The translations under genes and the position numbers were made by a program. The notes beneath the pieces are model-generated. The model did not search any database and was not told the origin of the DNA. It saw only the letters and a list, made by a program, of their open reading frames with translations. Below are positions 266-3,754 of a DNA stretch of 64,000 nt, one piece after another. This DNA is from Bacillota bacterium. GTDB taxonomy: Bacteria > Bacillota > Sulfobacillia > JAJZYS01 > JAJYTV01. The DNA lies in assembly GCA_021799275.1 (NCBI GenBank), contig JAJZAT010000011.1, positions 1-64,000 on the forward strand. Direction: 5' to 3'. Every line of letters begins with the position of its first letter. Within the stretch, counting starts at the first letter, position 1.

Positions 266-1207
266 TTGCTGGTGCAGAGAATAAGACAATGGTTCTCAAG
301 CAGCTTGGCAGGAAGGCGTTGGCAAAAGGGGGGCTCGACGATCGCGCGGGAAGACCTCAGAATCGTCGTCTTCCCGGAGCGCAGCGGTAGCGTACGAGAG
401 TGGCGATGGCAGGACCGGCACCGCCTATGGCTAAGCATCGCGTCCGCGGGGGCGGCGTTGCTGGTTGCCGCGGTCGTGTTCCTACTTGTCACCGCATACC
501 AGGACATCGCGACCACCAGTCACCTTCGCACGGAGTTGGCCGCGGCCGCCAAGGTGCGTGTAGACAACCGCATTCTCCGGGAACAGCTCGCTCAGGCTCA
601 GAACGTCAATAGCCGGGCCCTCACGCAGGTGACGGCCATGGCCGCGGACATCCAGCACGTCGAGAGGCAACTCGGCCTGCACTTCCAGACGAACGACACG
701 GGTCTCGGCAATGTGCTCAGCCGCTTGAACGCGTTGCACGAGCAACTGCCGACCGTTCTCGCCGCGGCCAAGACGCGCGACACCTACCTGCAGCACCGTC
801 CCGACATGCTGCCGGTCCAGGGGCCGATCAGCTCGTGGTACGGCTGGCGGCCCAACCCCTTCACCAACACCGGCAGCGAGTGGCACCCGGGTCTCGACAT
901 CGCGGTCCCGATGTACACGCCTGTCGTGTCGGTGGGCGCCGGCGTCGTGACCTACGCCGGGTGGAAGCCCGGCGGGTACGGCTACTATGTGCAGGTGGAC
1001 AACGGTTACGGCATCTCGAGCTTCGTCTCGCACAATTCGCAGGTCCTCGTCCACGTCGGCCAGCAAGTGAAGCGCGGACAGGAACTCGCGCTTTCGGGTT
1101 CCACGGGCCGCTCGACAGGTCCGCACGTCTATTTCGGCATTCTGGTGAACGGTGCCTCGACGAATCCGTGGCCGTTCATCCACGACTCTCCCGCGGAGGT
1201 GAAGTGA
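266..1207 (+). CDS. Membrane-anchored M23 (LytM-fold) peptidase-like protein, probably with a defective zinc site
   Basis: The 313-residue product has a basic N-terminus, one transmembrane helix (about residues 55-78), a helical or coiled-coil region (about 85-170) and a C-terminal LytM/M23 domain (about 185-305). The domain keeps the first zinc-ligand motif, His207-x3-Asp211 in WHPGLD, and the loop His of SHNSQ. The last motif reads His287-Val-Tyr289 (GPHVYF), whereas active M23 enzymes have HxH with the second His as zinc ligand. The protein may therefore be a non-catalytic activator, or may bind metal differently. The stop overlaps the ATG of the bactofilin gene (TGATG), and bactofilins are often paired with M23 proteins that shape the cell wall. 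The TTG start at 266 is the only reasonable start upstream of the conserved part, but it has no strong ribosome binding site. Confidence 0.8.
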   Translation: MLVQRIRQWFSSSLAGRRWQKGGSTIAREDLRIVVFPERSGSVREWRWQDRHRLWLSIASAGAALLVAAVVFLLVTAYQDIATTSHLRTELAAAAKVRVDNRILREQLAQAQNVNSRALTQVTAMAADIQHVERQLGLHFQTNDTGLGNVLSRLNALHEQLPTVLAAAKTRDTYLQHRPDMLPVQGPISSWYGWRPNPFTNTGSEWHPGLDIAVPMYTPVVSVGAGVVTYAGWKPGGYGYYVQVDNGYGISSFVSHNSQVLVHVGQQVKRGQELALSGSTGRSTGPHVYFGILVNGASTNPWPFIHDSPAEVK

Positions 1208-1650
1208 TGTCCCGCATGTTCACGAACCAGCGGCGCGGCGAGGAGGGTCCCACCGAGCCGATGGTGGACCAGACCGCCACGTACATCGGCAGCGATGCTT
1301 CGGTGGAGGGGACGGTGCGTGGCAGGGGCCTCTTGCGCATCGAGGGCCGCGTCGCTGGCCAGGTCGAGCACGAGGGCACGGTCGTCGTCGGCCAGAAGGC
1401 CGAGGTGCGCGCCAAGCTGCGCGTCAAGGAACTCGTGGTCCAGGGGTACGTGGAAGGATCGATCCACGCCGACCGCTGCGAGATCGCAGAAACGGCCCGC
1501 ATCGTCGGCGATGTCCGCGCGCAGCGCCTGGCCGTCGCGGAAGGCGCATCGATCCATGGCGATCTGGCCGCTAACCTGCCGGAGGACGCGGATCCGTCGG
1601 CGGCTCGCGGGCGGGCTGCGGAACTGGAGGAAGTGCCGCAGGAATCCTGA
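1207..1650 (+). CDS. Bactofilin (polymer-forming cytoskeletal protein)
   Basis: The 147-residue product has the bactofilin pattern: a short disordered N-terminus, then a right-handed beta-helix core of repeating hydrophobic and Gly units ([39 protein letters not shown]), and a charged tail rich in Ala and Glu. Bactofilins polymerise without nucleotide into filaments that recruit peptidoglycan enzymes. The gene begins inside the stop of the M23 gene, so the two are translationally coupled and likely act together at the membrane. Confidence 0.88.
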
Positions 1651-1662
1651 GGTACCAATCCA

Positions 1663-1693
1663 GGGAGGCGCGCCGAATGCCGGCGCGCCTCCC
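1663..1693 (+). terminator. 12-bp GC-rich hairpin after the bactofilin gene
   Basis: GGGAGGCGCGCC (1663-1674) pairs perfectly with GGCGCGCCTCCC (1682-1693) around a 7-nt loop. No run of T follows, so termination efficiency is uncertain, but its place between the bactofilin stop and uvrB suits a terminator. Confidence 0.55.
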
Positions 1694-1762
1694 TGTTCGC
1701 CTCGGCTGGCCAAGCCGTCCGCGATGGTGCACGATGGTTGTGCTCGGGGAGGGGATGGCTCG

Positions 1763-3754
1763 TTGGAGTTTCAGCTCGTTTCGCCCTATCAGCCCGCCGG
1801 CGACCAGCCCAAGGCCATCGGGGCGCTGGTCGAGGGGCTGCAGGAAGGGCTTAAGGAACAGACGCTCGTCGGCGTGACGGGATCGGGCAAGACGGCCACG
1901 ATGGCCTGGACGATCCAGCAGATCGGGCGCCCGGCCTTGGTCCTCGCCCACAACAAGACCCTCGCCGCGCAGCTCTGCGGCGAGTTCCAGTCGTTCTTCC
2001 CGCATAACGCCGTCGAGTACTTCGTGTCGTACTACGACTACTATCAGCCCGAGGCCTATATCGCCACGAGCGACACCTACATTGAGAAGGACGCCACCAT
2101 CAACGACGAGATCGACAAGCTGCGCCACGCCGCCACGACCGCTCTCTTCGAGCGGCGCGACGTGATCATCGTCGCCTCCGTGAGCTGCATCTACGGCCTC
2201 GGTTCGCCCGAGGACTATCGGGACCTCTGCCTGTCGCTGCGCCAGGGTCAGGAGCGCGACCGGCGGGAGATCCTGCGCAAGCTTGTCGATATCCAGTACG
2301 ACCGCAACGACATGAATTTCACCCGCGGCACCTTCCGGGTGCGCGGCGAGGTGCTGGAGATCATCCCCGCCTCGAACGAGGAGCGGGCCATCCGCATCGA
2401 GTTCGATGGCGACACGATCGACCGCATCCTCGAGGTGGACGTGCTGACGGGCGAGGTGCTCGGTAGTCGCCACCACGTGGCGATCTACCCGGCCTCGCAC
2501 TATGTCACGTCGAGGGACAAGCGCCAGAAGGCCATCATCACGATCGAGCAGGAGCTCGAGGACCAGCTGAGGGCGTTCCGGGCCCAGGGCAAGCTGCTCG
2601 AGGCGCAGCGGCTCGAACAGCGGACGCGGCACGACATGGAGATGCTGCAGGAGATCGGCTTCTGCCCCGGCATCGAGAACTACTCGCGCCATCTCACCGG
2701 CCGGGAGGCGGGTCAGCCGCCCTACACCCTGCTCGACTTCTTCCCTGAGGACTTCGTCCTGTTCGTCGACGAATCGCACCAGTCGCTGCCGCAGGTGCGC
2801 GCCATGTACGCCGGGGACCGCTCGCGCAAGGAGTCCCTGGTGGACTACGGCTTCCGCCTGCCTTCGGCGTTCGACAACCGGCCGCTCAAGTTCGAGGAGT
2901 TCATGGCCCGTCTGAACCAGGTCATCTATGTCTCCGCGACGCCGAGCGAGTTCGAGCTCTCCCGCTCGTCGCGCGTCGTCGAGCAGATCGTGCGTCCGAC
3001 GGGGCTCCTCGACCCGCAGGTCGAGGTGCGGGGGACGAAGGGGCAGATCGACGACCTCCTTTACGAGATCCGCCAGCGCACGCAGAAGCATCAGCGGGTG
3101 CTGGTGACGACCTTGACCAAGAAGATGGCGGAGGAGCTCACCGACTACCTCAAGGAGGTGGGGGTGAAGGTACGCTACATGCACTCGGACGTCGAGACGA
3201 TCGAGCGCATGGCCATCATCCGGGACCTCAGGCTCGGCGTCTTCGATGTGCTGGTCGGCATCAACCTCCTGCGCGAGGGGATCGACCTGCCGGAGGTGTC
3301 GCTGGTCGCGATCCTGGACGCCGACAAGGAAGGCTACCTCCGCTCGACGACGGCGCTCGTGCAGACGATGGGTCGCGCCTCGCGCAACCTCGACGGCAAG
3401 GTGATCCTCTACGCCGACCGCGTGACCGACTCGATGGCCCGCGCCATCAACGAGACGGAACGCAGGCGCGGCCTGCAGGCCGCGTTCAACGAGGAACACG
3501 GCATCACGCCGCAGTCGATCGAGAAGGCCGTCCGCGACGTCATCGAGGCGACGAAGCCTGTGACCGTCGATGCGCTCAACAGCCGCACGGCGGAGAGCGT
3601 GCGCCCCAAGGACGTGCCAAAGCTCCTCGAGAAGCTGCGTCGCGAGATGCGCGAGGCCGCGAAAGGCCTTGAGTTCGAGCGCGCGGCGGTATTGCGCGAT
3701 CTCATCGCTGAGCTCGAGACAAAGCGTCAGGAGGCCCGTGCCGCGAAGCGCTGA
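1763..3754 (+). CDS. uvrB: Excinuclease ABC subunit UvrB
   Basis: UvrB is the helicase-like damage-verification subunit of nucleotide excision repair; it is loaded by UvrA and recruits UvrC. The 663 residues match the family length. Visible motifs are Walker A GVTGSGKT (about residue 38), NKTLAAQL, the beta-hairpin region [10 protein letters not shown], Walker B DESHQ (about 335), the superfamily 2 motif QTMGRASRN, and the C-terminal UVR domain (about 620-656) that binds UvrC. I chose the TTG at 1763 because GGGAGGGG precedes it at good spacing and the product then starts [16 protein letters not shown], as in other UvrB proteins. I see no LexA box upstream, unlike uvrA. Confidence 0.97.

Follow-up and report, generated by a model that had tools for sequence, protein, structure and literature searches.

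Gene pairs encoding a bactofilin and an M23 protein shape cells, and whether the M23 enzyme itself or a partner acts as the wall cutter has been settled in few bacteria only. The window analyzed here, the whole 64,000-nucleotide stretch of a Bacillota genome (G000) starting at the first base of contig C3, carries such a pair at its left end, and the M23 protein, hereafter M23B, displays a tyrosine where the third zinc ligand is expected. The locus thus raises the question of what an M23 protein with a single changed ligand could do next to a bactofilin: cut peptidoglycan, assist another hydrolase or anchor the scaffold.

Results

The bactofilin–M23 gene pair

The pair and its conserved downstream neighbour comprise the following features:

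266–1207, + strand: M23B open reading frame, 313-residue protein with N-terminal tail, membrane helix, coiled coil and M23 (LytM) domain carrying HVY
356–409, + strand: predicted cytoplasmic β-hairpin of M23B, residues 31–35 and 44–48, of the bactofilin-binding type (from the model)
803–1183, + strand: M23/LytM domain of M23B, residues 180–306 (Pfam, AlphaFold2 model and structure search)
884–898, + strand: HxxxD of M23B (H207-P-G-L-D211), zinc ligands His207 (884–886) and Asp211 (896–898) intact
1031–1033, + strand: His256 of M23B, third conserved histidine, intact
1124–1132, + strand: His287-Val288-Tyr289 of M23B in place of HxH, the Tyr289 codon being TAT (1130–1132)
1207–1650, + strand: bactofilin open reading frame (Pfam Bactofilin, E = 1.5e-24)
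1295–3754, + strand: uvrB frame, conserved downstream neighbour whose true start lies further into the frame; outside the mechanism

The bactofilin frame starts inside the M23B stop codon, with a one-base overlap (TGATG, 1205–1209), and M23B is adjacent to a bactofilin gene in all six sampled genomes of the genus. Pfam assigns Peptidase_M23 to residues 207–301 of M23B (E = 1.6e-27) and detects no domain in the two proteins other than Peptidase_M23 and Bactofilin. In the AlphaFold2 model, built from a 44-row alignment with a mean pLDDT of 78.5 (about 70 in the hairpin, confident in the LytM domain), a small hairpin (residues 31–35/44–48) precedes a long helix that begins at residue 50, and a coiled coil then leads to the LytM domain (180–306). 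Model and alignment together predict a cytoplasmic β-hairpin, a membrane helix, a coiled coil and a C-terminal M23 domain. Of the five site residues, four are unchanged (His207, Asp211, His256 and His287); the fifth, Tyr289, is, judging from the aligned sequences, at the position of the third zinc ligand. The open reading frames, Pfam matches and codons thus bear out the preliminary description of this DNA, which had reported an intact WHPGLD, a last motif HVY with Tyr289 and a coupled bactofilin gene.

We then surveyed bactofilin-linked M23 proteins in general. A bactofilin match is present in 49 of the 61 sampled genomes, and the adjacent M23 protein was read in 44 of them (32 outside the window's order, 3 in family f4 and 9 in family f1), considering the best bactofilin per genome only and leaving out G024 and G060, with no M23 within the fetched stretch, and G027, G045 and G055, with weak bactofilin matches. 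Outside the order, the last motif is HxH in 31 of 32 genomes and HxY in one (G050); bactofilin-linked M23 proteins therefore normally carry HxH and are presumably active. No M23 match was found adjacent to the five second bactofilin copies inspected. Nearly all the bactofilin-adjacent M23 proteins display an N-terminal tail with a strand–turn–strand pattern ahead of the membrane helix, a type of element described as recruiting LmdC to bactofilin in Rhodospirillum rubrum (PMC10945521). By analogy with LmdC, and from the shared form, the hairpin of M23B likely binds the bactofilin.

Distribution of the HVY motif

Tyrosine occupies the 289 column in all six sampled genomes of the genus, the codon being TAT in four of them and TAC in the other two, so that Tyr289 is not a sequencing accident. 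Aligning bactofilin-linked M23 proteins, as had been proposed beforehand, hence confirms a real loss of the third ligand, conserved in the genus (6/6). On the DNA of 154 genomes of the class, a strict pattern (TGPHxYFG) matched nine, all in the window's family (reversed control, 0/154), and a looser one (TGPHx-Tyr-[FY]) matched 11, of which ten are M23 proteins (the same nine and G050) and one, G151, is not (reversed control, one genome). The HxH counterpart gave 330 matches in 104 of the 154 genomes, with HxY and HxH patterns alike detecting solely this exact motif surrounding. Elsewhere in the phylum, the five genomes with HxY matches among 398 sampled were discarded, G000 and G006 being already known and G165, G281 and G494 having no M23 protein at the matching place.

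In the sister genus, the operonic M23B carries HVH (G006, G007 and G008), and a second, off-operon copy located away from the bactofilin carries HVY in three of the four genomes (G006, G007 and G009, the last copy being a fragment at a contig end). Neither the strict nor the looser pattern found an HVY copy in G008, and the operonic M23B of G009 was left out, as its M23 part breaks off in a disturbed-looking region near a contig end. The tenth case, G050 from family f35, is a bactofilin-adjacent M23 protein with HxxxD and the His256 and His287 equivalents intact. In an M23-domain tree computed without the Tyr column, it groups with an HVH protein of G030 (support 97/96), far from the window's family, which indicates a separate origin of its tyrosine.

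A possible mosaic origin was also considered. In the sister genus, the off-operon HVY copies are 72–75% identical to the C-terminal part of M23B from the window's genus and 44–46% to its N-terminal part; for the operonic HVH copies, the values are 63–66% and 52–55%. M23B of the genus is thus a possible mosaic, with an N-terminal part nearer to the operonic copy of the sister genus and an M23 domain nearer to the off-operon HVY copy. Phylogenetic proof that the M23 domain was taken from the off-operon paralogue was not obtained, as the HVY clade is supported at 81/74 only and the operonic clade is not rejected (p-AU 0.287); with the N-terminal tree, either grouping is compatible with the data (p-AU 0.409 and 0.299).

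M23B in the neighbourhood of ftsEX and an intact M23 gene

In relatives, the gene order is ftsE–ftsX–M23A–M23B–bactofilin–uvrB, with the genes from ftsE to bactofilin joined on one stretch in G005, G006, G007, G012, G013 and G014, and with yitT-like, prfB and secA genes ahead of ftsEX. The ftsX product matches Pfam FtsX_ECD and FtsX, and an ABC ATPase sits in the ftsE position. M23A, encoded ~150 bases upstream of M23B, carries, in this FtsX context, a PcsB-type coiled coil (Pfam CC_PcsB), and its last motif is HVH or HLH wherever readable among the relatives. Since the first base of contig C3 is also that of the window, M23A of G000 lies on another contig, at the end of C38, where it is readable up to GPHVH, its end not being assembled. 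In G010 and G011, from two other families of the order, ftsE–ftsX–M23A is followed by uvrB with M23B absent in between, and no bactofilin match was found anywhere in either genome; G010 has one further M23-like match elsewhere.

The region ahead of M23B in the window contains:

1–125, no strand: repeat end, not part of the gene pair; C18, C58 and C32 match at 99–100%, at or near three other contig ends
130–175, + strand: G+C-rich hairpin between M23A and M23B in the genus, terminator-like, without T run (z −5.95 in G003, −2.53 in the window)
231–284, + strand: promoter-like block, with a box TCCAACGGAAAACTCAT, then ACAGGGTTG (256–264), 11 bases and AGAGAATAA (276–284)
328–343, + strand: ribosome-binding site GGGGGG (328–333) and likely non-standard start ATC (341–343) of M23B

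Relatives align to the window from base 130 onward only, and the repeat at 1–125 has no counterpart between their M23A and M23B genes; in G000, the end of M23A may have received an insertion of a mobile or repeated element. The terminator-like hairpin and the promoter-like block suggest that M23A and M23B are transcribed separately. The block displays 38 invariant columns in nine sequences of two genera and occurs once per genome in 9 of the 61 sampled genomes, only before M23B and only in the window's family; besides the window, it was seen at loci L042, L043, L044, L045, L047, L049 and L052. Its right half (256–284) resembles what we take to be the sigma-H consensus, and the upstream box TCCAACGGAAAACTCAT lies outside this half. 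We take the conserved block for a DNA element. It was rejected as a regulon signal, being present in a single copy per genome solely before M23B, and as an RNA element, with no Rfam match above the gathering score and a stretch (226–340) that folds no better than its shuffles (z 0.54).

The frame of M23B opens with TTG at 266, which is probably not the start: G001 and G005 do not conserve it, and it falls inside the promoter-like block. From the conservation of the region, ATC at 341, preceded by a strong ribosome-binding site, appears the likelier start: the candidate is ATC in the genus and ATA or ATT, at the same spacing, in operonic copies of the sister genus (G006, G007 and G009), and G006 has an in-frame TAA just ahead of it. 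Starts of the ATC/ATA/ATT kind are rare, and low or regulated translation could follow.

Site loss and constraint across the order

In the sister family f4, none of the five site residues remains in the operonic M23B of the three genomes (Pfam M23, E from 1e-11 to 1e-15), with HxxxD replaced by SxxxQ, NxxxL or SxxxE, the middle histidine by Gln or Asp, and the HxH stretch gone; these proteins keep the tail hairpin (YRLVVLSERDGTAQE and similar). An off-operon M23 copy of this family carries HVH in G012 and G013, and HVD in G014 (L055, contig C44), the latter being another single change at the third zinc ligand. As read from these motifs, the site of operonic M23B is, within one order, either intact, changed at one ligand or dead.

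The dead copies raise the question of whether the M23 domain could be a mere wall-binding or structural anchor for the bactofilin, catalysis being now irrelevant. The f4 proteins, in which the site is wholly lost and the hairpin kept, fit this reading, as do degenerate LytM proteins with a structural role such as SpoIIQ (PMC5053510); we nevertheless give it little probability for M23B, since both the HVY domain and its four remaining site residues are strongly constrained. By a simple Nei–Gojobori count, dN/dS of the M23 domain of HVY M23B is 0.056–0.079 (six pairs, four genomes of the genus), close to the M23A domain (0.050–0.113, six pairs) and the HVH copies of the sister genus (0.040–0.049, three pairs); a single off-operon HVY pair gives 0.069, with saturated dS. 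The dead f4 copies reach 0.239–0.473 at similar dS (three pairs), their M23A neighbours being at 0.012–0.114 and the off-operon copies of this family at 0.104–0.384. The HVY domain is thus as constrained as intact domains, which argues against simple decay and for a groove or site that is still used somehow. All eight HVY sequences of the family, and that of G050 as well, retain the four remaining site residues; this is not striking by itself, since 63% of the columns are invariant among the eight HVY rows of the family.

The same data bear on a second possibility, that M23B still is a working metallopeptidase, with Tyr289 as a ligand, with two ligands and water, or with another metal, slower or retuned and recruited by the bactofilin like LmdC. 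The retention of all the remaining site residues, an enzyme-like constraint against a clear relaxation in the dead f4 copies, the second appearance of His-to-Tyr beside a bactofilin in G050 with the rest of the site intact, and the presumably active HxH proteins linked to bactofilins in 31 of 32 genomes outside the order all speak for it. However, we know of no M23 peptidase with tyrosine as a zinc ligand, and none was found in print in the open-licence literature, judged by titles; EnvC, with tyrosine in the same column, has neither zinc nor activity (PMC11627006); and a change from CAY to TAY is a single easy step, so that two origins weigh little. We consider a working enzyme possible, although on the unlikely side; it is the chief alternative to the model proposed below.

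Comparison with EnvC and the amidase question

In an alignment with Escherichia coli EnvC, Tyr289 falls on Tyr401, His207 on W320 and Asp211 on V324. These columns of EnvC correspond to three lost zinc ligands in a protein reported to be without zinc and without activity (PMC11627006), and its Trp and Tyr are needed to activate AmiB (PMC8416486, citing Peters et al, 2013). Taking the amidase-activation residues of EnvC listed in PMC10336132, M23B shares Y350, a common residue, and Y401, and does not share K321, V353, V355 and R405. A structure search with the M23B model returned DipM (Z 21.9), EnvC (21.4), ShyA (21.2) and LytM (20.8), tied within about one Z unit, and was thus discarded as a means of separating activators from enzymes. 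The only Amidase_3 protein found in G000 (contig C52) aligns over 183 residues to a 174-position model, with no long insert. M23B has no PcsB/EnvC-type Pfam match, CC_PcsB sitting in M23A.

An EnvC-type activator, whose groove containing Tyr289 would dock onto and open an autoinhibited amidase at bactofilin sites, could account for the tyrosine in the column of EnvC Tyr401 and for EnvC and DipM being among the best structural matches. We find it improbable: the active enzymes ShyA and LytM tie with them, four of the activation residues are not shared, the amidase of G000 is without a long regulatory insert, and the coiled-coil protein on the FtsX side is M23A, not M23B.

The preliminary description had gone further in suggesting that the pair recruits or activates another wall hydrolase. 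In favour of this idea are the conserved loss of the ligand, the EnvC-like position of Tyr289, the intact M23A upstream behind ftsEX, the fully dead M23B in the same place in f4 and the LmdC-type hairpin. The analogy with EnvC on which it drew fares less well, given that M23B, unlike EnvC, keeps four of the five site residues, that Y350 and Y401 are the only activation residues in common, that the amidase has no long insert and that intact domains evolve no more slowly than the HVY domain.

Other M23 proteins and SpoIIQ

By Pfam, G000 encodes four M23 proteins: M23A, M23B, one on contig C47 with HTGWE and no HxH, and one on contig C28 with GxxxE and HLT. The C47 and C28 proteins both being degenerate, no M23 protein of G000 other than M23A would have an intact site if M23B is dead, a count bounded by the HxH pattern and the Pfam cut-offs, which odd M23 proteins could escape. 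In G001 to G005, the HxH pattern matches once in each genome.

M23B could also be the SpoIIQ of this organism, acting in the spore channel. Sporulation genes are present (SpoIVA), a sigma-H-like promoter is possible, and M23B weakly matches a curated SpoIIQ model (29 bits versus a cut-off of 250, E = 7.8e-07), which is of the Bacillus cereus group style only. This weak match is nevertheless common to M23B, M23A and the C47 protein, and pairing with a bactofilin is no trait of SpoIIQ. On contig C47 (L056, 2716–5854), a degenerate SpoIIQ-like M23 gene is followed by two further frames, which we take to be a large serine recombinase-like protein and SpoIIID. The C47 protein, degenerate and next to this presumed SpoIIID frame, is the better SpoIIQ candidate, and a SpoIIQ role of M23B appears very improbable.

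Discussion

A model for M23B as a partner of M23A

We propose that M23B is a membrane-anchored LytM protein that would be tethered to bactofilin filaments via its cytoplasmic hairpin, and that, owing to the His-to-Tyr change at the third ligand, would cut peptidoglycan poorly or not at all. Going by the role of this ligand in LytM and Csd1 (PMC5053510) and by EnvC, HVY probably lowers or abolishes catalysis. M23B would then position or regulate an intact hydrolase as its partner, the likeliest candidate being the FtsEX-linked M23A. The choice of M23A is our guess, guided by gene order, by the Csd1–Csd2 precedent and by M23A as the only intact site; as M23B has no PcsB/EnvC-type Pfam domain, it is gene order that connects it to FtsX or M23A. 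As a whole, a LytM protein that is tethered to bactofilin, has a crippled zinc site and assists M23A, in a logic like that of Csd2 with Csd1 and CcmA, is a reading on which we are evenly divided. Against it stand a constraint on HVY equal to that on intact M23A, the four of five site residues kept, the hints of separate transcription and the contact data from Helicobacter pylori described below.

In a broader form of this proposal, ftsEX, M23A, an HVY pseudoenzyme in the making (HVH, HVY, dead) and the bactofilin would make up one envelope-spanning machine, in which bactofilin and FtsEX control M23A through the HVY protein. We regard this as doubtful, though worth stating since, if true, the division ABC complex would be joined to a bactofilin scaffold. 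No FtsEX–bactofilin link was found in the open-licence literature.

Relation to known systems

Bactofilin–M23 pairs and inactive LytM partners are already known. A tyrosine at the third-ligand column with the rest of the site kept, recurring beside bactofilin, was not found in the open-licence literature, nor was a link of a bactofilin–M23 pair to ftsEX–M23A.

The closest in architecture is LmdC–BacA of Hyphomonas neptunium and R. rubrum: like M23B, LmdC is described as bitopic, with a short tail forming a β-hairpin, a membrane helix, a coiled coil and a C-terminal M23 domain, and is encoded next to a bactofilin gene (PMC10945521). Unlike M23B, whose third ligand is Tyr, it retains the full set of zinc residues and acts as an endopeptidase (PMC10945521), its clade being reported to have an active LytM domain (PMC8416486). 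The ftsEX–M23A neighbourhood of M23B has no mention for LmdC–BacA in the accessible text of PMC10945521.

The closest in logic is Csd1–Csd2 with CcmA of H. pylori, which likewise combines one intact and one degenerate LytM protein with a bactofilin, the inactive Csd2 heterodimerising with the active Csd1 (PMC5053510, PMC12468929). As for Csd2, an intact M23 partner and a bactofilin are encoded alongside M23B in the relatives, M23A of G000 being on another contig. Csd2 has, however, lost the first histidine of both motifs (Glu165 and Lys246) and keeps the last one (PMC5053510, PMC12468929), whereas M23B has lost only the last, and the intact partner of Csd2 is a close Csd1-like twin, whereas that of M23B would be an FtsEX-linked coiled-coil protein of PcsB type. 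For H. pylori, it is reported as excluded that CcmA directly contacts Csd1, Csd2 or Csd7 taken singly (PMC12468929).

EnvC shares with M23B a tyrosine in the same column and a matching LytM fold (Z 21.4), but has lost the other zinc-site residues too, is soluble and FtsX-bound, and has no bactofilin link. SpoIIQ of Bacillus subtilis is, like M23B, a membrane-anchored LytM protein with a zinc ligand missing; it differs in having serine in place of the histidine of HxxxD and of another histidine (PMC5053510), and the C47 M23 protein is another SpoIIQ candidate. With respect to these systems, the window and its near relatives, carrying an intact site, a site in which Tyr replaces one ligand, or no site at all, form a natural series beside an FtsEX-linked hydrolase, which lets the loss of catalysis, the retention of scaffold binding and a metal site that may contain Tyr be tested side by side.
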